Assembly (NCBI RefSeq): GCF_026968045.1
Contig: NZ_JAPVBQ010000005.1
Location: forward strand, 1 to 64,000
Reading direction: 5' to 3'
Origin: Modestobacter sp. VKM Ac-2977
Lineage (GTDB): Bacteria > Actinomycetota > Actinomycetes > Mycobacteriales > Geodermatophilaceae
DNA: 64,000 nt
Of this stretch, positions 51,959 to 63,261 are shown piece by piece. The translations under genes were made by a program, and so were the position numbers. Position 1 is the stretch's first letter; the number at the start of each line of letters is the position of its first letter. Under the pieces are notes generated by a model. It saw nothing but the letters and a program-made list of their open reading frames with translations, searched no databases and was not told the DNA's origin.

Positions 51959-53422
51959 TCAGTCGTACGGCGTGAGGGTGGCCGCCCACTCCCCGGAGGC
52001 GGCCCGGGTGAACTCGGCCACCTCGTCGGCGGCCATGTCCCGCGCGGTGTAGCCGCCGCTGCCGGCGCCGACGCAGGCCAGCACGGTCGCCAGCCCGGCC
52101 CGGCGCTGGACCAGCGACTGCCGCACCTCCCAGCCCACGACGGCGCGGTCCTGCAGCACGGTGTGGCTGCGCACCAGCCACCCCGAGCGCAGCGCGAACG
52201 ACCGGGGGCCGGCGACGTGCCCCAGGGCGTTGTAGCGGGCCAGGCCGAGGGGCACGCCGAGCAGCACGAGGGCGGCCCCGGCGGCCAGCAGCGGCCACCA
52301 GCCCGTCAGCGCGAGCACCACCCCACCGGCGGCCGCCACCAGCAGCCCGGGCGTGGTGCCCCGCGCGATGCTGCGCCGACGGGCGGCCGGGGGGTGCCGC
52401 CGCAGCGGACCCGGGTGGTCGACGAGCTCGGTGGAGAGCGCACGGGCGAGCTCCACCGGCCCGAGCGGCAGCACCTGCCCCCGTCGCGTGGCGTCACCGA
52501 GGCCGGTGACCAGGGCGCTGACCCGGGCCGCGCCGACCAGCCGCATGCCCAGCCCCTCGCTGATCGTGCAGCCCCGGATCCGGTCGATGTCCAGCTCTGT
52601 GTGCCGGCGGGTGACCAGTCCACGGACGGCGACGAGCGCCCCACCGCGCCGGAGCAGCCGGAACCGCCAGTTCACCAGGGCGCTGCCGATGATCGAGCCG
52701 AGGATCAGCAGCAGCAGGGCGCTCACCACGAGCCGGACGACGATCCGGGTGTCCGAGACGTCCGGCGACCAGAACTCCGGCAGGAACTGCTCGGGCAGCT
52801 CCTCGGCGGCCCGGAGCAACGCGCCCCCGGCGGCCAGGGGAACCGCCAGGTAGCTGCCCACCAGCGGGGCGTAGACCAGCCACCGGTAGTCGAAGCGGAG
52901 CAGTTCCTCCTCCGGTTCGGCCGCGGCGTGCCGGCCTGCGAGCAGGTCCTGCGCGGAGGCGGCATGGGTGAGCAGCCGGTTGCGCAGCCGGTCGCCCTCG
53001 GCGCGGGTGACACCGTCGATCAGCAGCTCCTCCTCGCTGGTCACCGAGCCGGCCGCCGCGTCGATCCGCACCCGGACGAGCCCCAGCAGCCGGTGCAGCG
53101 CCGGTGCCTCGACCTCGACCCCGCGGATCCGGTCGTTGGGCACCGTGCGCGCCGAGCGGGTCAGCAGCCCGCGGGTGACGACGACCGCGGCGTCCCCGTC
53201 GGTGTAGCTGAACCGCCACCAGCTGATCGCCGCGCCCAGCAGCGACAGCAGCGTGATCCCGGCGACCAGGGCGATCACCGTGCCCAGCCCGTCGCCCAGG
53301 CCTCGGGTGACCCCGAGGGCGAGCACCGCCGGCACCAGGGCCCGCGCCTGGCGGAAGGTCACGGTGTGCAGCACCAGCACCCACGGCGACGTCCGCCGTC
53401 CGAGCGACTCCAGGCCGGTCAC
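51959..53422 (-). CDS. YdbT-like bPH2 membrane protein
   Basis: A 487-residue membrane protein carrying three bacterial PH-like (bPH2) segments: LLTRSARTVPNDRIRGVEVE, LVTRRHTELDIDRIRGCTI and WLVRSHTVLQDRAVVGWEV. Helix pairs lie near residues 30-65, 185-245 and 345-385. The pairing with the upstream single-domain gene matches the Bacillus ydbS-ydbT arrangement, which affects antibiotic and membrane-stress tolerance. GTG start overlaps the previous stop (GTGA). Confidence 0.82.
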   Translation of the reverse strand: MTGLESLGRRTSPWVLVLHTVTFRQARALVPAVLALGVTRGLGDGLGTVIALVAGITLLSLLGAAISWWRFSYTDGDAAVVVTRGLLTRSARTVPNDRIRGVEVEAPALHRLLGLVRVRIDAAAGSVTSEEELLIDGVTRAEGDRLRNRLLTHAASAQDLLAGRHAAAEPEEELLRFDYRWLVYAPLVGSYLAVPLAAGGALLRAAEELPEQFLPEFWSPDVSDTRIVVRLVVSALLLLILGSIIGSALVNWRFRLLRRGGALVAVRGLVTRRHTELDIDRIRGCTISEGLGMRLVGAARVSALVTGLGDATRRGQVLPLGPVELARALSTELVDHPGPLRRHPPAARRRSIARGTTPGLLVAAAGGVVLALTGWWPLLAAGAALVLLGVPLGLARYNALGHVAGPRSFALRSGWLVRSHTVLQDRAVVGWEVRQSLVQRRAGLATVLACVGAGSGGYTARDMAADEVAEFTRAASGEWAATLTPYD

Positions 53423-53934
53423 GTGGCCTCGTCGCGCACCAGCTCCGCCCGCCGCGCCAGGTCGTCGGCGACCCGCCGGGCGACGTCCACCTCCAGGTGC
53501 GGCACCCGGACCGTGCCCTGGGAGGACGCCGTCAGCACCGCGACGGTGGCCAGGCCGAACAGCTGCTGGAAGACCCCGCGGTTGACGTCGACGGTCTGGA
53601 TCCGGGAGATGGGCACCAGGGTCCAGGTGCGGGTCAGCCAGCCGGTGAGTGTGTAGACCGCCTCGGCGGTGACCTCCCAGCGGTGCACCCGGTAGCGCAG
53701 CCGCGGGCGCACCCCGATCGTCACGATGCCGTAGACCACCACGAACGCGGGGCCTCCCCAGCGCAGCAGCGGCACCCACCAGCCTGCGTCCGTGGGCACG
53801 AGGACGATCGCGGTCGCCACGATCACCGCGTAGACGATCGTGCCGAGGACCGCCTGCGTCACCCACAGGCCGATCGCGGAGCGGGACAGCGACCAGGCGG
53901 GTTCCCGGACGGGCGCGGGCGGGGGAGCGGACAT
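53419..53934 (-). CDS. YdbS-like bPH2 membrane protein
   Basis: A 171-residue protein with two helices (about 20-75) followed by one bPH2 domain (RYRVHRWEVTAEAVYTLTG; LVPISRIQTVDVNRGVFQQL; ASSQGTVRVPHLEVD). ATG 53934 begins MSAPPPAPVREPAW. It is the small partner of the downstream YdbT-like protein. Molecular activity unknown. Confidence 0.82.
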   Translation of the reverse strand: MSAPPPAPVREPAWSLSRSAIGLWVTQAVLGTIVYAVIVATAIVLVPTDAGWWVPLLRWGGPAFVVVYGIVTIGVRPRLRYRVHRWEVTAEAVYTLTGWLTRTWTLVPISRIQTVDVNRGVFQQLFGLATVAVLTASSQGTVRVPHLEVDVARRVADDLARRAELVRDEAT

Positions 53935-54006
53935 CGGGACCATCCTCGCAGTGCCCGACCGGCCGAGCGGCCGCACCGCCGGTGGGGCGGCGCACCGCGT
54001 GCCACG

Positions 54007-54351
54007 ATGGATCGCGTGATGATGCCCCAGCAGGTGCCGACCGTCCCCGCCGCCGAGGTGCCCGACGACGCCGTCGTGCTGGACGTGCGCGAGGACGACG
54101 AGTGGTCCGCCGGGCACGTCCAGGGTGCGACGCACATCCCGATGGGCGACGTCCCGGCCCGGCTCGGCGAGGTGCCCGAGGGCGACCCGCTGTACGTCAC
54201 CTGCCGCAGCGGGGGGCGCTCGGCGCGGGTGACGGCGTGGCTCAACCAGAACGGCTACGACGCGGTCAACGTCGGCGGCGGGATGGGCGAGTGGGACGCG
54301 GCCGGCCGGCCCATGGTGAGCGAGACCGGCCGCCCGCCCTACGTCGTGTAG
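54007..54351 (+). CDS. Rhodanese-like protein
   Basis: A 114-residue single rhodanese domain, VVLDVREDDEWSAGHVQGA near residue 22 and the active-site Cys in YVTCRSGGRSARV near residue 65, with a normal six-residue loop. It probably transfers sulfane sulfur. ATG 54007 is the first supported start; the open frame extends far upstream without coding signal. The TAG stop runs into a palindromic repeat. Confidence 0.88.
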   Translation: MDRVMMPQQVPTVPAAEVPDDAVVLDVREDDEWSAGHVQGATHIPMGDVPARLGEVPEGDPLYVTCRSGGRSARVTAWLNQNGYDAVNVGGGMGEWDAAGRPMVSETGRPPYVV

Positions 54352-54377
54352 GGGCCAAAGTCGCGCTTTTGGCCCCT
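54351..54377. repeat. 27-base palindromic repeat, copy 2
   Basis: Hairpin GGGGCCAAAG-tcgcg-cTTTTGGCCCC fills the whole gap between two convergent genes and probably terminates both. It matches the copy at 29161-29187 except at two positions. Confidence 0.75.
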
Positions 54378-55993
54378 CAGTCGTTGACCGGGTAGTCGGC
54401 GAAGCGGGAGCGCAGGTCCTTCTTGGAGAACTTGCCGACGCTGGTCTTGGGCACCTCGTCGATGAACTCGACCGCCTCGGGCAGCCACCACTTGGCCACC
54501 AGCGGGGTGATGTGGTCGATGATCTCCTGGCCGGTCACGGTCTCGCCCTCCCTGAGGACGACGCAGGCGAGCGGCCGCTCGTCCCACTTCGGGTGCGGGA
54601 TCGCGATGACCGCGGCCTCCTTCACCGCCGGGTGGCTCATGATCGCGTTCTCCAGGTCGACGGAGGAGATCCACTCGCCCCCGGACTTGATCAGGTCCTT
54701 CGTGCGGTCGGCGATCCGGATGTTGCCGTTCTCGTCCATCGCCGCGACGTCGCCGGTCTTCATCCAGCCGTCCGGGGTGGCCAGCTCCACCCCGGCGTCC
54801 GGCCGGTAGTAGTCCTGCGCGCACCACGGGCCGCGGACCTGGAGCTCGCCGGTGGCCTTGTCGTCCCAGGGCTGCTCCTCCAGGGTGTCCGCGTCGACGA
54901 TCCGGGCCAGCACGCCGAACAGCGGCAGGCCGGCCCGGGCTCGCCGCTCGGCCTTGGCGCCCTCGTCGGCGTCTGCCCAGCGAGCCGACAGCGTGCCGCC
55001 GGAGGCGACCGGGTGCGTCTCGGTCATGCCCCACGCCTGGTACAGCGGGAGGCCGACCTGCTCGCGGTAGGCCTCCGACAGCGCCTTCGGCACGGCCGAG
55101 CCGCCGCAGCCGATCTTCCGCAGCCGGTGGGTTCGGCCGGCCAGGTGCGGCAGCGCGCCCTGGAAGATCGTCGGCACCCCTGCGGTGAAGGTGACGCCCT
55201 CGTCGATGATCAGGTCGGCCAGTGCCTGCGGCTGCATCATCGCGCCGGGGAAGACCATCGCCGCACCGGACGCGGGGGCGGCGTGCGCGATGCCCCAGGC
55301 GTTGGCGTGGAACATCGGCACGATCGGCATCGCGACGTCCTCGACGCCGATGCCGAAGCCGTTCGGGGAGACCACGGCCATCGTGTGCAGCACCGTCGAC
55401 CGGTGGCTGTAGACGACGCCCTTCGGGTTGCCCGTCGTGCCGCTGGTGTAGCACATGGAGGCGGCCGCGTTCTCGTCCGTGGTGGTGAACTCGACCGGCT
55501 GGGCGTCGGCCAGCAGCGTCTCGTAGTCGAGCACCCGCGGGTCGTCGGGCACCTCGTTGTCGCCGCCGTCGTCCATCACCACCACGTGCCGGACGGTCGT
55601 CATCGTGTCGATCAGCGGCCACAGCAGGGGCAGCACGGTGCGGTCGACGAAGACGACCTCGTCCTCGGCGTGGTTGGCGATGTAGGTCAGCTGCTCGGGG
55701 AACAGGCGCACGTTGAGCGTGTGCAGCACCCGCCCGGTGCAGGGGGCAGCGAAGTACAGCTCGAGGTGGCGGGCCGAGTTCCAGGCGAACGTGCCGACCC
55801 GGCCCTCGGCGCTGACGCCCAGGGTGTCCAGCACCCCGCCCAGCCTCCGGGTGCGGTCGGCCCACTCGGCGTAGGTGGTGCGCACCTTGCCGCTGGGGTT
55901 GTTCGTGACGATCGGGACGTCGCCGTGGTGCTGCTCGGCGTGCCGGAAGATCGTGTCGACGGTCAGGGGGACGTCCTGCATCAGCCCACGCAT
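54377..55993 (-). CDS. Acyl-CoA synthetase (medium/long chain, AlkK-like)
   Basis: A 538-residue adenylate-forming enzyme that activates a fatty acid with ATP and CoA. Motifs are the P-loop-like CYTSGTTGNPKGVVYSHRS, the A5 region YQAWGMTETHPVASGG, the adenylation motif GWMKTGDVA, and the catalytic Lys near the C-terminus in TSVGKFSKKDLRSRF. The pattern LFPEQLTYIANHAEDEVVFVD fits the medium-chain AlkK/FadD branch. ATG 55993 begins MRGLMQDVPLT; a longer frame is unsupported. Confidence 0.88.
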   Translation of the reverse strand: MRGLMQDVPLTVDTIFRHAEQHHGDVPIVTNNPSGKVRTTYAEWADRTRRLGGVLDTLGVSAEGRVGTFAWNSARHLELYFAAPCTGRVLHTLNVRLFPEQLTYIANHAEDEVVFVDRTVLPLLWPLIDTMTTVRHVVVMDDGGDNEVPDDPRVLDYETLLADAQPVEFTTTDENAAASMCYTSGTTGNPKGVVYSHRSTVLHTMAVVSPNGFGIGVEDVAMPIVPMFHANAWGIAHAAPASGAAMVFPGAMMQPQALADLIIDEGVTFTAGVPTIFQGALPHLAGRTHRLRKIGCGGSAVPKALSEAYREQVGLPLYQAWGMTETHPVASGGTLSARWADADEGAKAERRARAGLPLFGVLARIVDADTLEEQPWDDKATGELQVRGPWCAQDYYRPDAGVELATPDGWMKTGDVAAMDENGNIRIADRTKDLIKSGGEWISSVDLENAIMSHPAVKEAAVIAIPHPKWDERPLACVVLREGETVTGQEIIDHITPLVAKWWLPEAVEFIDEVPKTSVGKFSKKDLRSRFADYPVND

Positions 55994-56175
55994 GGCCGAA
56001 TGGTGCCAGTGACCGAGCTCACGTTCTACCCGTGGACGCCACCCGCCGAGGACGCGCCGGTCCACCCCCGGACGGGGGGGCGGGCTGCCGCCTCGGTGCC
56101 GGCCGGCTGCGAGGTGAACGTCCCGTTACGCGACCGTGACGATCCAGTTCGGGTGACGGGCTTGACGGACGGGGG

Positions 56176-56191
56176 TTGTTAGCGCTCACAC
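56176..56191. promoter_or_regulatory. LacI-type operator before sugar importer
   Basis: TTGTTAGCGCTCACAC contains a near-perfect dyad, TGTTAGCGCTCACA (56177-56190), centred on GCGC/AGCGCT. It is closely related to the operator before araB at 61503-61518. It lies about 60 bases upstream of the importer start and is the probable site for the LacI-family regulator encoded downstream. Confidence 0.72.
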
Positions 56192-56251
56192 TGTCTCAGC
56201 CCGCAGCGGCGGGCCTGCGCCACTAGGGGGCAGATGTCTCGAAGGAGAGAT

Positions 56252-57409
56252 GTGGCAGTGAACAAGAAGCTGGGCCTCACCGCCCTGGGCGCCACCCTGG
56301 CCATCGGCCTCACCGCATGTGGTGGCGAGGGCGCCGGCAGTTCCAACGACACCGAGAACGCAGCTCCTGAGGACCTCACGATCGGTGTCTCGATGCCGAC
56401 CGAGACCTCCGAGCGCTGGATCGCCGACGGCGCCAACGTCGAGGACCAGCTCGAGTCGGCCGGGTACCAGGTCGAGCTCCTCTACGCCGGTGACGACATC
56501 CCGACCCAGTCCCAGCAGATCGACCAGATGATCGCCCAGGGCGTCGACGCACTGATCGTCGCGGCGATCGACGGCACCGCGCTCAGCGCGCAGCTGCAGA
56601 ACGCGGCCGACCAGGACATCCCGGTGATCAGCTACGACCGGCTGATCCGGGAGACCGAGAACGTCAACTTCTACGTCAGCTTCGACAACTTCAAGGTCGG
56701 CGTCGCGCAGGGCACCGCCCTGCTGACCGGCCTGGGCATCACCGACGAAGAGGGCAACCCGACCGGGGCCACCGGGCCGTTCAACATCGAGCTGTTCGCC
56801 GGCTCGCTGGACGACAACAACGCCGGCTTCTTCTTCGACGGCGCCATGTCGGTCCTGCAGCCCTACATCGACAACGGCACGCTCGTCGTCAAGTCCGGCC
56901 AGACGAGCATCGAGCAGGCCGCCACGCTGCGCTGGTCGCAGGAGACCGCCCAGCGGCGGATGGAGGACCTCCTCACCTCCAGCTACAACGACGGCTCGGT
57001 CGTCAACGGCGTCCTGTCGCCCTACGACGGCATCTCCCGCGGCATCATCACCGCGCTGCAGAACGCCGGCTACGGCCCGACGCAGGACGCGCAGCCCAAG
57101 CCGATGCCGGTGATCACCGGTCAGGACGCCGAGATCGCCTCGGTCAAGCTGATCGCCGACAACGTCCAGGACTCCACGGTCTTCAAGGACACCCGGCTGC
57201 TGGCCGAGCAGGCCGTCGCCGCCGCGACCGCCTACCTCGAGGGCGAGGAGCCGGAGGCCAACGACACCGAGACCTACGACAACGGTGTCAAGGTCGTCCC
57301 GTCCTACCTGCTCCCGATCGAGACGGTCTACCAGGACGACATCCAGTCGGTCCTGATCGACTCCGGCTACTACACCGCCGAAGAGGTCGCCGCAGGCCAG
57401 ACGGACTGA
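56252..57409 (+). CDS. Sugar ABC transporter substrate-binding lipoprotein (ChvE-like)
   Basis: A 385-residue lipoprotein. Signal peptide with lipobox LTAC, Cys23 as lipidation site, then a type I periplasmic binding fold (IGVSMPTETSERWIADGANVE; QIDQMIAQGVDALIVAAIDG; IPVISYDRLI; SVVNGVLSPYDGISRGII). The ERWIADG and YDRLI segments are typical of the multiple-sugar binders (ChvE/xylose type) that pair with GguAB. GTG 56252 has AGGAG four bases upstream; ATG 56234 lacks one. Genomic context suggests L-arabinose. Confidence 0.92.
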   Translation: MAVNKKLGLTALGATLAIGLTACGGEGAGSSNDTENAAPEDLTIGVSMPTETSERWIADGANVEDQLESAGYQVELLYAGDDIPTQSQQIDQMIAQGVDALIVAAIDGTALSAQLQNAADQDIPVISYDRLIRETENVNFYVSFDNFKVGVAQGTALLTGLGITDEEGNPTGATGPFNIELFAGSLDDNNAGFFFDGAMSVLQPYIDNGTLVVKSGQTSIEQAATLRWSQETAQRRMEDLLTSSYNDGSVVNGVLSPYDGISRGIITALQNAGYGPTQDAQPKPMPVITGQDAEIASVKLIADNVQDSTVFKDTRLLAEQAVAAATAYLEGEEPEANDTETYDNGVKVVPSYLLPIETVYQDDIQSVLIDSGYYTAEEVAAGQTD

Positions 57410-57425
57410 CGTCCGTCCTCCAGAC

Positions 57426-57463
57426 CCGGCCGGGTCCGGCAGCATGCTGTCGGACCCGGCCGG
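57426..57463 (+). terminator. Large intercistronic hairpin
   Basis: CCGGCCGGGTCCG (57426-57438) pairs perfectly with CGGACCCGGCCGG (57451-57463); the loop itself contains the palindrome CAGCATGCTG. It lies 17 bases after the binding-protein stop and 114 before the ATPase start. Such hairpins protect the upstream mRNA and reduce read-through, so the binding protein is made in excess over the membrane components. Confidence 0.75.
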
Positions 57464-57577
57464 CTCCACCCCACCTCGGGCCGGACGCCGGCCGGGTGGG
57501 GGCCCCGCAGGCGCACACCCCGAGTGGTCGACACTCGGCCCACCCATCCCTTGTGAACGACGAGGACGACGGAGTCC

Positions 57578-59112
<1,535 letters not shown>

Positions 59113-59116
<4 letters not shown>

Positions 59117-60366
59117 CCAGGACCGTTCCCCCGCAGGCGGGCCAGACCCCGCCGAACGCGGACTTCACGCCCACCCCGGCCGGGCAGAGCGGTTCCGGCG
59201 ACCTGCGCGAGTTCCTCCGCAGCAACCTGCGGACCAGTGGCATCTACGTCGCCTTCGTCGCGATCGTCGCCCTCTTCGCGTTCCTGACCGACGGCACCCT
59301 GCTCAGCGCCGGCAACGTCACCAACCTCGTCCTGCAGTACTCCTACATCCTGGTGCTGGCCATCGGCATGGTCATCGTGATCATCGCCGGGCACATCGAC
59401 CTCTCCGTGGGGTCGGTGGTCGCGCTCACCGGCGCGGTCTCCGCCGTCCTGGTCATCGACCGAGGACTGCCGTGGTGGGTCGGCATCCTGGCCGCCATCG
59501 CGGTGGGCCTGCTCGTCGGCGCCTGGCACGGCTTCTGGGTCGCCTACGTCGGCATCCCCGCCTTCATCGTCACCCTCGCCGGCATGCTGCTGTTCCGTGG
59601 CCTGACGCTCCAGGTGCTGGACAACGTCTCGCTGTCGCCGTTCCCGGCGGAGTACCGCGAGGTGGCCAGCGGGTTCCTCAACGGCCTGCTCGGCGGCTAC
59701 GGGTACGACACCTTCACCCTGGTGATCGGTGCCATCGCGGTGGCCGGCTACGCGGTCAGCAACTGGCGCTCCCGGGCTGCCCGGGTCCGCTACGGGCAGC
59801 CGGTCGAGTCCCTCGCGCTGTTCGTCCTGAAGGTCGTCGCCGTCGGCGCGGTCGTGATGGCCTTCGCCTGGCAGCTGGCCAACGCCCGCGGCCTGCCCAT
59901 CGTGCTGATCATCCTCGGCGTGCTGGCGATCGCCTACGGCCTGATCACCAAGAACACCGTGTTCGGGCGCCAGGTGTACGCCATCGGCGGCAACCTCTCG
60001 GCGGCGACGCTGTCCGGCGTCAAGGTCAAGGCCGTCAACTTCTGGATCTTCGTCAACATGGGCTTCCTGTCCGCGGTGGCCGGGGTCATCTACTCCTCCC
60101 GGTCCAACGGTGCCCAGCCCGCCGCCGGCGAGATGTTCGAGCTCGACGCCATCGCCGCCGCCTTCATCGGCGGTGCGGCGGTCACCGGTGGTGTCGGCAC
60201 CGTGGTCGGGGCCATGGTCGGTGGCCTGATCATGGCGGTCATGAGCAACGGCATGTCGCTCCTGGGCGTCGACCAGTCGATCCAGTCGGTGGTCAAGGGT
60301 CTCGTGCTGCTGCTGGCCGTCGCCTTCGACGTCTACAACAAGCGGCGCGCCGGCGCCGCCCGCTGA
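59113..60366 (+). CDS. Sugar ABC transporter permease (GguB-like)
   Basis: A 417-residue permease of the AraH/RbsC family, about 10 helices. Markers are [21 protein letters not shown] near residue 90, [33 protein letters not shown] with VKVKAVNFW in the coupling loop, and [20 protein letters not shown]. The extra-long central segment with [13 protein letters not shown] is typical of the GguB type rather than RbsC. The ATG overlaps the ATPase stop (ATGA). Confidence 0.94.
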
Positions 60367-60390
60367 CGCAGGCCGCGGAGCCACCAAGTC

Positions 60391-60443
60391 GAGGGCGGCA
60401 CCGGCGCCGTCCTCACCTCGAGGACGGCATCGGCGCCGTCCTC
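60391..60443 (+). repeat. Tandem twin hairpins after importer operon
   Basis: Two related 24-base hairpins in a row, each with arms GAGG(G/A)CGG and CCGTCCTC: 60391-60414 and 60420-60443. They differ at three positions, are separated by ACCTC, and lie between the permease and the LacI regulator gene. Likely terminator or attenuator arisen by duplication. Confidence 0.65.
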
Positions 60444-60459
60444 TGCTGAAGGGGGAACC

Positions 60460-61494
60460 GTGCTGCCCGATGGAGCGCCGCGCGCGTTGGCACTGTCCGA
60501 TGTCGCCGTGCACGCCGGGGTCTCGCACCAGACGGTGTCCCGGGTCGTCAACGGGCACCCGAACGTGGCCCCGGCGACCAGGGAACGGGTGCAGCGGGCG
60601 ATCACCGAGCTCGGCTACCGGCCGAACACGGCGGCCCGTGCCCTGGTCACCGGGTCCACCCGCTCGTTCGGCCTGGTGACCTCGCACATCAACCAGTACG
60701 GGCCGGCACAGACGCTGCTCGGGCTGGAGAAGGCCGCCCGGGCGGCCGGCTACTCCCTCGGGGTCGCCATCCTCGACGACGACAGCGAGGCGGCGATGCG
60801 CGAGGCGGTCGACCGTTTCGTGGCGCAGTCCGTCGATGCGGTGGTCGCGCTGTCCACCTACGGCCAGGCGGTCGAGGCGCTGCGGCGGTTCGAGGCGCCG
60901 GTGCCGCTGATCGCGGTGCAGGTGGGCAGGGACGAGTCCCGGCCCACCGTGTGGGTCGCCCAGGAGGTGGGGGCGGAGCTGGCCACCCGCCACCTGCTCG
61001 AGCTCGGGCACCGCACCGTGCACCACGTCACGGGGCCGCCGGACTCGCTGGAGGCCCGTGGGCGGATGGTCGGCTGGCGCCGCGCACTGGAGGACGCCGG
61101 CGCACCGGTCCCCGAGCCGTTGCACGGTGACTGGTGGCCCTGCTCCGGGCACGAGGCCGGTCGCGAGCTGGCCGCGCGCGTGCGCGCCGGGCAGGACGAC
61201 GTCACCGCCGTCTTCGTCGCCAACGACCAGATGGCACTCGGCCTGCTCAGCGCCCTGGCCGACGAGGGGGTCTCGGTACCGGGCGACGTCAGCGTCGTCG
61301 GCTTCGACGACGTGCCCGAGTGCGCGTACTTCACCCCGCCGCTCACCACGGTGCGGCAGGACTTCGCCGAGCTGGGCCGCCGCGGGGTCGAGCTCGTGCT
61401 CGCCCGGCTGCGGGGGGAGCCGCTGGAGTCCCAGCCGGTCCTGCCCCAGCTGGTCGTGCGGCGGTCCACCGGACCGGCGCGCACGGCGGTTTGA
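60460..61494 (+). CDS. LacI-family regulator, probable arabinose-type
   Basis: A 344-residue regulator. The N-terminal helix-turn-helix ALSDVAVHAGVSHQTVSRVVNG (two halves: DVAVHAGVSHQTVSRVV) and hinge YRPNTAARAL precede a sugar-binding core with GLVTSHIN, VANDQMALGLLSAL and VPGDVSVVGFDDV. GTG start after GGGGGAA. It lies between importer and araBDA genes, and both have matching operators; it is probably the repressor released by L-arabinose or a phosphorylated intermediate. Confidence 0.92.
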   Translation: MLPDGAPRALALSDVAVHAGVSHQTVSRVVNGHPNVAPATRERVQRAITELGYRPNTAARALVTGSTRSFGLVTSHINQYGPAQTLLGLEKAARAAGYSLGVAILDDDSEAAMREAVDRFVAQSVDAVVALSTYGQAVEALRRFEAPVPLIAVQVGRDESRPTVWVAQEVGAELATRHLLELGHRTVHHVTGPPDSLEARGRMVGWRRALEDAGAPVPEPLHGDWWPCSGHEAGRELAARVRAGQDDVTAVFVANDQMALGLLSALADEGVSVPGDVSVVGFDDVPECAYFTPPLTTVRQDFAELGRRGVELVLARLRGEPLESQPVLPQLVVRRSTGPARTAV

Positions 61495-61502
61495 CGGAGC
61501 TG

Positions 61503-61518
61503 TTGTTAACGCTAACAA
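61503..61518. promoter_or_regulatory. LacI-type operator before araB
   Basis: TTGTTAACGCTAACAA is a near-perfect palindrome with a CG centre, typical of LacI-family operators, located 79 bases before araB. It is related to the operator at 56176-56191 (TGTTAGCGCTCACA) with the shared GTTA-GCGCT-AC frame. Confidence 0.78.
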
Positions 61519-61596
61519 TCCATCCGGTGCCGCGTCCCGCGGCGAACCGGTTCGCTGGGACCAGGCCCGTCACGGTGGGCGGAAGGGGCTCCTGAC

Positions 61597-63261
61597 ATGA
61601 CGATGGACGCCGGCACGGCGATCACCTCGGGTCGCACGGCTCTGGGGATCGAATTCGGATCGACCCGGATCAAGGCGGTGCTGATCGGGCCGGACCACGT
61701 GCCCCTCGCCGTCGGCAGCCACGACTGGGAGAACCAGTTCGTGGACCGGCTCTGGACGTACTCGCTGGACGCCGTGTGGGCCGGGGTGCAGCAGAGCGTC
61801 ACGGCCCTGGCCGAGGACGTACGGCAGCGCCACGGGGTCGAGCTGTCCGGGGTCGGCGCGCTCGGCGTGTCCGCGATGATGCACGGCTACCTCGCGTTCG
61901 ACGCCGAGGGCGAGCTGCTCACGCCGTTCCGCACCTGGCGCAACACGAACACCGGGCGGGCGGCCGAGCGGCTCAGCGCGGAGTTCGGGTGCAACATCCC
62001 GCACCGGTGGAGCGTCGCGCACCTCTACCAGGCGATCCTGGACCGCGAGGAGCACGTCGGCCGACTCGACCACCTGACCACCCTGGCCGGGTACGTGCAC
62101 TGGCAGCTCACCGGCGAGAAGGTGCTCGGCATCGGGGACGCCAGCGGCATGTTCCCGATCGACGCCGCCGGGGGCTACGACACCACGATGCTGCCCCGGT
62201 TCGACCAGCTGGCCGCCGAGGCCGGGGTAGAGCTGACCCTCGCCGAGCTGCTGCCCGGCATCGCCCGCGCCGGACAGCCGGCCGGCACGCTCACCGAGGC
62301 GGGCGCGGCGCTGCTGGACTCGAGCGGCCGGCTGCGTGCCGGCGTCCCCGTCTGTCCGCCGGAGGGTGACGCCGGCACCGGGATGGTCGCCACCAACTCG
62401 GTCGCCCCGCGGACCGGCAACGTCTCCGCCGGGACGTCGATCTTCGCGATGGTCGTGCTCGAGCGGGAACTCGCCCAGGTGCACCGTGAACTGGACCTGG
62501 TCACCACGCCGGCCGGTGACCCGGTGGCGATGGTGCACTGCAACAACGGCGCCAGTGAGCTGGACGCCTGGGCCGGGCTGTTCGCCGAGTTCGCTCGTGC
62601 GCTGGGTGCCGACGTCGACTCCTCGACGGTCTTCCAGACCCTCTTCACCGCTGCCCTGGGCGGCGCGAGCGACTGCGGCGGGATGCTCGCCTACAACTAC
62701 CTCTCCGGGGAGCCGATCACCGACTTCGAGGAGGGCCGGCCGCTCTTCCTACGGTCCCCCGACAGCCCGTTCGACCTGGGCACCTTCATGCGGACGCACC
62801 TGTTCGCCTCCCTGGCCACGCTGAAGATCGGCATGGACGTCCTGCAGAAGACCGAGGGCGTGCGGCTCGACCGGATGTACGCCCACGGTGGCCTGTTCAA
62901 GACCGAGGGCGTGGCGCAGCGCTTCCTGGCCGCCGCCATCGACACCCCGGTCGCCGTCGGCGACGTCGCAGCCGAGGGGGGCGCCTGGGGGATCGCCGTC
63001 CTGGCCGCCTTCGCCGCCGGGCGCGCGCCGGAGCAGGAGCTGGCGGACTACCTGGACGCCGAGGTCTTCACCGACGCGAGCCTGACGACCGCTGACCCCG
63101 ACCCCGCGGACGTCGCGGGCTTCGAGGCGTTCATGCAGCGCTACGTCGCCGCGCTCCCGGTGCAGCGGGCCGCCGTGGACCACGTGGACGTCGGCCACCG
63201 GCCGGCGGCACCGCAGACCGAGACCACCTCTGCCGCCGAGACCGAGGAGCAGCCGGCATGA
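61597..63261 (+). CDS. araB: L-ribulokinase (FGGY family)
   Basis: A 554-residue FGGY kinase. The N-terminal phosphate loop is LGIEFGSTRIKAVLIG; WENQFVDRLWTYSLDAVW and GVSAMMHGYLAFD follow. FRTWRNTNTG resembles the ribulokinase substrate region, and GDAGTGMVATNS and VSAGTSIFAMV are the second-domain loops. It phosphorylates L-ribulose to L-ribulose-5-phosphate. Xylulokinase annotation is the main alternative, but araD and araA follow directly. Its Ala/Glu-rich tail ends overlapping the araD start. Confidence 0.88.
   Translation: MTMDAGTAITSGRTALGIEFGSTRIKAVLIGPDHVPLAVGSHDWENQFVDRLWTYSLDAVWAGVQQSVTALAEDVRQRHGVELSGVGALGVSAMMHGYLAFDAEGELLTPFRTWRNTNTGRAAERLSAEFGCNIPHRWSVAHLYQAILDREEHVGRLDHLTTLAGYVHWQLTGEKVLGIGDASGMFPIDAAGGYDTTMLPRFDQLAAEAGVELTLAELLPGIARAGQPAGTLTEAGAALLDSSGRLRAGVPVCPPEGDAGTGMVATNSVAPRTGNVSAGTSIFAMVVLERELAQVHRELDLVTTPAGDPVAMVHCNNGASELDAWAGLFAEFARALGADVDSSTVFQTLFTAALGGASDCGGMLAYNYLSGEPITDFEEGRPLFLRSPDSPFDLGTFMRTHLFASLATLKIGMDVLQKTEGVRLDRMYAHGGLFKTEGVAQRFLAAAIDTPVAVGDVAAEGGAWGIAVLAAFAAGRAPEQELADYLDAEVFTDASLTTADPDPADVAGFEAFMQRYVAALPVQRAAVDHVDVGHRPAAPQTETTSAAETEEQPA

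Follow-up and report, generated by a model that had tools for sequence, protein, structure and literature searches.

The window analysed here, a stretch of 64,000 nt from Modestobacter sp. VKM Ac-2977, contains an ABC-importer cluster in which a very stable hairpin lies between the gene for the binding protein and the genes for the pump. An ABC importer generally requires more copies of its binding protein than of its pump, and the locus raises the question of whether the hairpin could set such an excess at the level of the mRNA, or is one more ordinary gene end of its lineage.

Gene organization of the locus

The genes concerned are the following:
56258–57409, + strand: chvE, lipoprotein binding protein of a multiple-monosaccharide ABC transporter (NCBIfam NF040907)
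57578–59116, + strand: gguA, ATP-binding subunit (NCBIfam NF040905, above cut-off)
59113–60366, + strand: gguB, permease (NCBIfam NF040906, above cut-off)
60460–61494, + strand: LacI-family regulator gene, start at 60460 or 60508 (best NCBIfam model below its cut-off)
61597–63261, + strand: FGGY-type sugar kinase gene (XylB model, below cut-off)

The multiple-monosaccharide ABC-importer cluster chvE-gguA-gguB occupies positions 56258–60366, and each of its genes scores above the NCBIfam cut-off; in a profile search ChvE reached 514.8 bits against NF040907 (cut-off 460), and its lipobox reads LTACG. Candidate start codons of chvE are GTG at 56258 and ATG at 56234, and its stop codon is at 57407–57409. 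Gene order and strand place the transporter genes downstream of chvE and co-directional with it, across a gap of 168 nt. From a start 17 nt past the chvE stop codon, the hairpin extends to 111 nt ahead of gguA, so that it separates the binding-protein gene (chvE, upstream) from the transporter genes (gguA and gguB, downstream), as the first-pass annotation of this DNA had stated. No hairpin is possible at the gguA-gguB junction because the two genes overlap, by 4 nt, and leave no gap.

Structure of the hairpin

Three structures are predicted around the chvE stop codon and in the gap that follows it:
57423–57466, + strand: main hairpin (folding, and covariation in an alignment of same-family loci)
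57400–57417, + strand: small hairpin of 7 bp with the chvE stop codon in its loop (predicted fold)
57470–57500, + strand: third stem, lying just 3′ of the main hairpin and differing among relatives on visual inspection (predicted fold)

Positions 57426–57463 read CCGGCCGGGTCCG / GCAGCATGCTGT / CGGACCCGGCCGG, and the perfect 13-bp G/C-rich stem with a 12-nt loop described earlier after the lipoprotein gene is exact in the sequence. The loop had also been called palindromic; it is self-complementary, but most of it is in fact stem, its ends pairing on as G·U, C-G, A-U, and G-C. The folded RNA is predicted to form a 17-bp stem with one G·U pair, in which 57426–57442 pair with 57447–57463 around a CAUG tetraloop (57443–57446), and two outer pairs beyond one mismatch extend the hairpin to 57423–57466 (−39.9 kcal/mol). 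A 101-nt region folds with a z-score of −6.1, and none of 200 shuffles was equally stable. Rfam covariance models gave no match up to E = 1 in 55000–60000. The tail of the hairpin, CACCCCACCT, has no U tract, and the structure is thus not a canonical intrinsic terminator; a consensus scan of 52000–63000, uninformative for this GC-rich genome, found no terminator-like site and one weak promoter match.

Conservation within the family

Of 117 searched genomes, among them the window's own, 97 had a match. The same-family sample, which we take to be Geodermatophilaceae (its named members are Klenkia, Blastococcus, Geodermatophilus, and Modestobacter), consisted of the chvE-gguA gaps of 47 loci with the window among them, and one locus (L003) was dropped because its contig ends in the hairpin. 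A stem scoring at least 36 is found in the chvE-gguA gap of all 46 remaining loci, window included, where 40 dinucleotide shuffles per locus led to an expectation of 0.20 loci. The hairpin score, its thresholds of 36 and 40, and the gene caller were our own, and the thresholds were fixed after the first data had been seen. The 46 family stems have arms of 16–22 nt with up to two mismatches and start 8–30 nt past the stop codon.

An alignment of the 46 loci together with Geodermatophilus sabuli, comprising 17 pairs and 790 cells, is paired in 98.7% of these cells, a value that is favoured by the centring of the aligned stretches on the predicted stem; as an alignment control, sliding the partner by 1–3 columns brought pairing down to 15–50%. 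Changes on both sides of a pair were detected at 9 of the 17 pairs (33 cells, versus 6.7 in shuffles), and the covariation score was 0.231 compared with 0.150 in shuffles. Conservation of the hairpin lies in its structure and not in its sequence.

A stem of this kind might also be read at the level of DNA, as a dyad bound by a regulator or a nucleoid protein. The near-perfect inverted repeat is long, and its sequence is fairly conserved in the family, where 43 of the 46 loci have an 8-mer in common with the window hairpin, both of which speak for such a site. However, some of the changes seen in the family give G·U pairs, as fits RNA better than DNA, and the wider sample described below bears on the same point.

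Of the 46 family hairpins, none has as many as four T in the 10 nt that follow the stem (mean 0.93 T). Over the 30 nt after the stem, C outnumbers G roughly two to one in the family (711 versus 336), and this C-rich tail could serve as a Rho loading stretch. Immediately after the stem, at 57464–57475, the tail is well kept across the family, mostly as CACCACC or CTCCACC. In the chvE-gguA gap of one locus (L002), a stretch of slightly more than 30 nt with a small stem, located 3′ of the main hairpin, is tandemly duplicated.

Conservation beyond the family

The named-genome sample was made up of the best 80 of at least 574 loci, from which six repeats of family genomes were removed, leaving 74. 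These best-matching loci include Micromonospora, Kribbella, Cellulomonas, Demequina, and Microbacterium, as well as Rathayibacter, Arthrobacter, Schaalia, and Propionibacteriaceae; one of them (L148) bears the title Proteobacteria and may be mis-binned. A strong stem (score at least 36) lies between chvE and gguA in 68 of the 74 loci so drawn from the best 80 of at least 574, with 0.15 expected. The six loci of this best-80 sample that have no strong stem are L106, L125, L156, L158, L159, and L162, of which L125, L156, L158, and L162 have gaps of less than 25 nt, L106 has a weak stem (15), and L159 scores 31. The 68 hairpins of the named loci (best 80 of at least 574) are poor in U as well: one has at least four T in the 10 nt following its stem, and the mean is 1.24 T.

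Loop length differs among the named loci in the best 80 of at least 574, and 50 of the 68 stems found there have no 8-mer in common with the window hairpin, which argues against a fixed DNA-binding site. With the sequence turning over while the stem stays, the DNA-binding dyad was set aside as very improbable.

Before counting, L050 and L052 were dropped because the gguA start was mis-assigned, and L057, L058, L060, and L062–L065 because gguA does not adjoin the chvE relative. Five of the nine order-level loci with a resolvable gguA score at least 36, and six are above all shuffles; those below 36 are L055 (34), L059 and L061 (both weak), and L056 (gap of 8 nt). Outside the phylum, where five plasmid-borne clusters were taken from 485 matching records, none of the five reached a score of 36. 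A clear hairpin is located just past chvE in Sinorhizobium (score 35) and Phyllobacterium (32), and the chvE-gguA gaps of Azospirillum, Pseudosulfitobacter, and Enterococcus gave stem scores of 24, 17, and 8, respectively.

In Phyllobacterium, the chvE-gguA junction (L261, 2509–2676) has a hairpin with a U-rich tail, resembling a canonical terminator, 123 nt ahead of gguA. An Arthrobacter plasmid copy of chvE (L263) scored 20 in the scan, and after position 2538 an extended, imperfect inverted repeat surrounding recurrent GCTGCCAGAGC-like units is visible by eye.

Hairpins at other gene ends of the genome

For a background set, genes were called over a 464-kb portion of this genome, and the best stem was scored in each gap of 40–500 nt. 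Stems scoring at least 40 were found in 19 of 135 tandem, 12 of 37 convergent, and none of 68 divergent gaps, and in 5 of 1000 coding windows. Stems at least as strong as the window hairpin occur in 10 of the 135 tandem gaps (the window's own included), 4 of the 37 convergent, and none of the 68 divergent gaps, and in 1 of 1000 coding windows, each 168 nt long. The hairpin is therefore far beyond chance, yet it belongs to a type commonly met where genes end in this genome.

These counts raise the possibility that the hairpin reflects nothing more than how abundant GC-rich inverted repeats generally are where genes end, as the tandem gaps with a stem at least as strong would suggest. Such abundance does not account for the persistence of the stem at 46 of 46 family junctions and at 68 of 74 named orthologous junctions (best 80 of at least 574), where 0.20 and 0.15 were expected, nor for the better conservation of the chvE-gguA junction than of the other end of the cluster, which carries a second hairpin:
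60391–60443, + strand: second strong hairpin, after gguB (stem scan of gaps)

This hairpin was considered as an equally conserved partner, which the relatives did not support. It reaches a score of 36 in 9 of 14 relatives of our own choice, in two of which (L213 and L214) it lies only inside what appears to be the neighbouring regulator gene, leaving 7 of 14; it is kept almost unchanged in L203, L204, L206, and L211 and is variable or absent in the other relatives checked. General abundance as the whole explanation is accordingly held to be highly unlikely.

Hairpins at the gene ends of this genome are in general poor in U. In up to 10 nt after stems scoring at least 36, hairpins in convergent gaps have a mean of 0.88 T, with four or more T in none of 16, and those in tandem gaps a mean of 1.30, with four or more T in 1 of 23. 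It is plausible, then, that the window hairpin is a leaky intrinsic terminator of a U-less, ‘I-shaped’ kind, at which polymerase mostly stops and read-through sets the level of gguAB. The U tract expected of an intrinsic terminator is absent, as it is in the relatives (four or more T in 0 of 46 family hairpins and in 1 of 68 named hairpins from the best 80 of at least 574), but this does not exclude a leaky terminator because the hairpins of convergent gaps, also U-poor, are found at gene ends in the same genome.

Other strong hairpins listed for the genome differ in sequence from the window hairpin. A degenerate pattern of its arms has 15 exact matches among those listed in the 4.3-Mb genome, a count in which hairpin formation plays no part. 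The arm-core pattern was rejected as a specific marker: with at most one mismatch it matched 221 times on the forward and 228 times on the reverse strand, compared with 104 and 132 for the reversed pattern. Hairpins made of a G-run followed by a C-run were noticed at L185 (contig C1 of the same genome, after a PF01547 gene) and at C9:149266–149360, and these long G/C-run hairpins could be length-variable or hard to assemble.

Association with binding-protein genes

Four Pfam families yielded 25 binding-protein genes in the genome, 21 of them with a co-directional gap of at least 40 nt. For PF13407 the top five of 17 matches were used, and the other 12 were excluded as a group, being likely regulators or weak matches. 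Stems scoring at least 40 are present in 14 of the 21 binding-protein gaps, compared with 16 among 132 other tandem gaps (Fisher p = 3e-7), the control being the 135 tandem gaps minus three binding-protein gaps known in the 464-kb stretch. When only binding-protein genes followed by a permease or ATPase gene were counted, the proportion was 11 of 17 (p = 6e-6). In a second genome from another family (G083), PF01547 alone at a score of 40 gave 3 of 9 versus 12 of 100 (Fisher p = 0.11), with binding-protein gaps still included in the control of 100; the enrichment there is in the same direction and is not significant.

Promoters and room in the gap

Two sequences with possible roles in initiation were located upstream of chvE and of gguA:
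56162–56192, + strand: likely chvE promoter/operator (TTGACG, 19 nt, CACACT), with boxes that recur in relatives
57520–57538, + strand: palindrome CCGAGTGgtcgaCACTCGG, about 40 nt ahead of gguA

A TTGAC box followed at 17–22 nt by CACA(A/C/T)T or AACACT is found upstream of chvE in 49 of 51 loci, the two exceptions (L025 and L033) having coding sequence at the position of the chvE promoter. The palindrome TGTTAGCGCTCACA (56177–56190), which overlaps the chvE −10 box, is presumably a LacI-type operator, and the product of the LacI-family gene at 60460–61494 is possibly the regulator that acts there.

The palindrome CCGAGTGgtcgaCACTCGG, similar to palindromes that occur in several close relatives, is a possible promoter or operator. 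A promoter at this position would fit a further reading, in which the hairpin fully terminates a monocistronic chvE unit and gguAB are transcribed from a promoter of their own in the gap. At least 62 nt separate the hairpin from gguA in all 46 family loci, and 18 of the 46 have CACACT, like the probable −10 box of chvE, at a distance of 46–83 nt before gguA; the window has GACACT. With 111 nt between hairpin and gguA in the window and CACACT in those 18 loci, a second promoter is possible. Against this, 28 of the 46 family loci have no CACACT, and inspection by eye did not reveal a TTGAC-like −35 box before CACACT. In 14 of the 68 named loci (best 80 of at least 574), moreover, the stem ends 12–30 nt ahead of gguA, with gguA starts extrapolated from tblastn. 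This leaves little room for a promoter of gguA's own, suggesting that in these loci gguA is probably read through the hairpin. Full termination is thus regarded as unlikely.

Comparison with known systems

The malE-malF element of E. coli is a REP repeat. It was cited as a stabilizer in work on decay-regulated operons in which mRNA half-lives were measured and the mRNA of the binding subunit is favoured (Dar and Sorek, 2018, PMC5927463). The window hairpin is likewise a stable structure after the gene for an ABC-importer binding protein, and in that account no terminator role is needed (PMC5927463). Unlike malE-malF, the other strong hairpins of this genome carry different sequences, and the window hairpin is known from sequence rather than from half-lives. 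The same paper remarks that other lineages have other RNases (PMC5927463).

In Clostridia, Wu et al. (2022, PMC9045158) used a reporter operon and obtained 20.7–96.1% termination at stem-loops after binding-protein genes, and these authors believe internal partial terminators to be widespread in prokaryotes. The clostridial ABC-importer elements occupy the same position ahead of the translocator genes and have long GC stems with low U; as described there, they mostly have some U-rich 3′ tract and range from −10.1 to −38.3 kcal/mol, whereas the window hairpin has no U tract and is at about −40 kcal/mol (PMC9045158). Under the rule given for stem-loops of selective RNA processing and stabilization (SRPS), in which those without a poly(U) tail are classed as ‘stabilizer’, the window hairpin would fall into that class by the rule alone, which was derived for Clostridium (PMC8219983). 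The principle of a hairpin after a binding-protein gene, which the earlier annotation had called a known design, is thus already published, with precedents in E. coli (PMC5927463) and Clostridia (PMC9045158).

Transcript ends mapped in Actinomycetota are also relevant. In Streptomyces griseus, 441 of 2,115 transcript 3′ ends are reported, in a Term-seq study, as structured but without a U-rich motif (PMC8914203), and these ends, some of them non-terminal in operons, resemble the window hairpin as it is read from its letters. Of 320 ends mapped to predicted terminators in Corynebacterium glutamicum, the majority fall in the first stem arm, for which processing is one explanation (PMC3890552). 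The termination seen with low-U, long-GC clostridial stem-loops (PMC9045158) and the structured S. griseus ends without a U-rich motif (PMC8914203) both favour a leaky terminator, which we consider a plausible though less than probable reading; the estimate given to it overlaps partly with that of the preferred one, and the several estimates are not meant to sum to one.

A model for the chvE-gguA junction

The hairpin is stable, it directly follows the gene of an ABC-importer binding protein, the transporter genes downstream are co-directional, and the structure is kept in orthologues. It is probably an intercistronic mRNA element that gives a short chvE transcript a defined and protected 3′ end, with more ChvE made than pump. 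In such a model the transcript would begin upstream of chvE; a fraction of transcripts would end near the hairpin, or be trimmed back to it, giving a stable chvE-only mRNA; and the remainder would read on into gguAB. The outcome would be an excess of the ChvE lipoprotein over GguA and GguB, whose overlapping genes would stay matched. We infer that the hairpin is transcribed, that it folds in the RNA, and that it affects the chvE:gguAB ratio.

We consider an exonuclease barrier, with protection of the 3′ end after Rho termination or downstream endonuclease cleavage, a somewhat better account than termination caused directly by the hairpin, and the two may act together. This slight preference for a barrier follows from the missing U tract, which is weak ground because convergent gene ends in this genome also have no U tract.

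That the excess of binding protein would be set by the hairpin is the best reading of the locus and is partly supported, by the retention of the structure while its sequence drifts and by the enrichment of strong stems after binding-protein genes in the same genome. It is weakened by the U-poor hairpins at many gene ends here (12 of 37 convergent gaps), given which the hairpin could be the lineage's ordinary terminator, by the 111 nt of room for a promoter in the window, by the enrichment that is not significant in G083, and by the junctions that have no strong stem.

Whether U-less hairpins act as terminators or as exonuclease blocks is debated for Actinomycetota. To these published cases the locus adds a U-less hairpin that persists at one orthologous junction through extensive sequence turnover. 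A broader view, offered tentatively and close to an even call, is that the chvE-gguA junction carries a structure-only RNA element across Actinomycetota and perhaps in some Alphaproteobacteria, U-less, with arms of 12–26 nt, remade with new sequence in different lineages and seldom lost, which in GC-rich bacteria with no U tracts at their gene ends would divide expression between binding protein and pump at a fixed ratio. The persistence of the stem indicates that actinobacteria keep a hairpin at one binding-protein/pump junction over wide divergence without U tracts, and hairpins of the same position and different sequence constitute a natural series for asking whether hairpins of the U-less kind can end transcription or do no more than block exonucleases.
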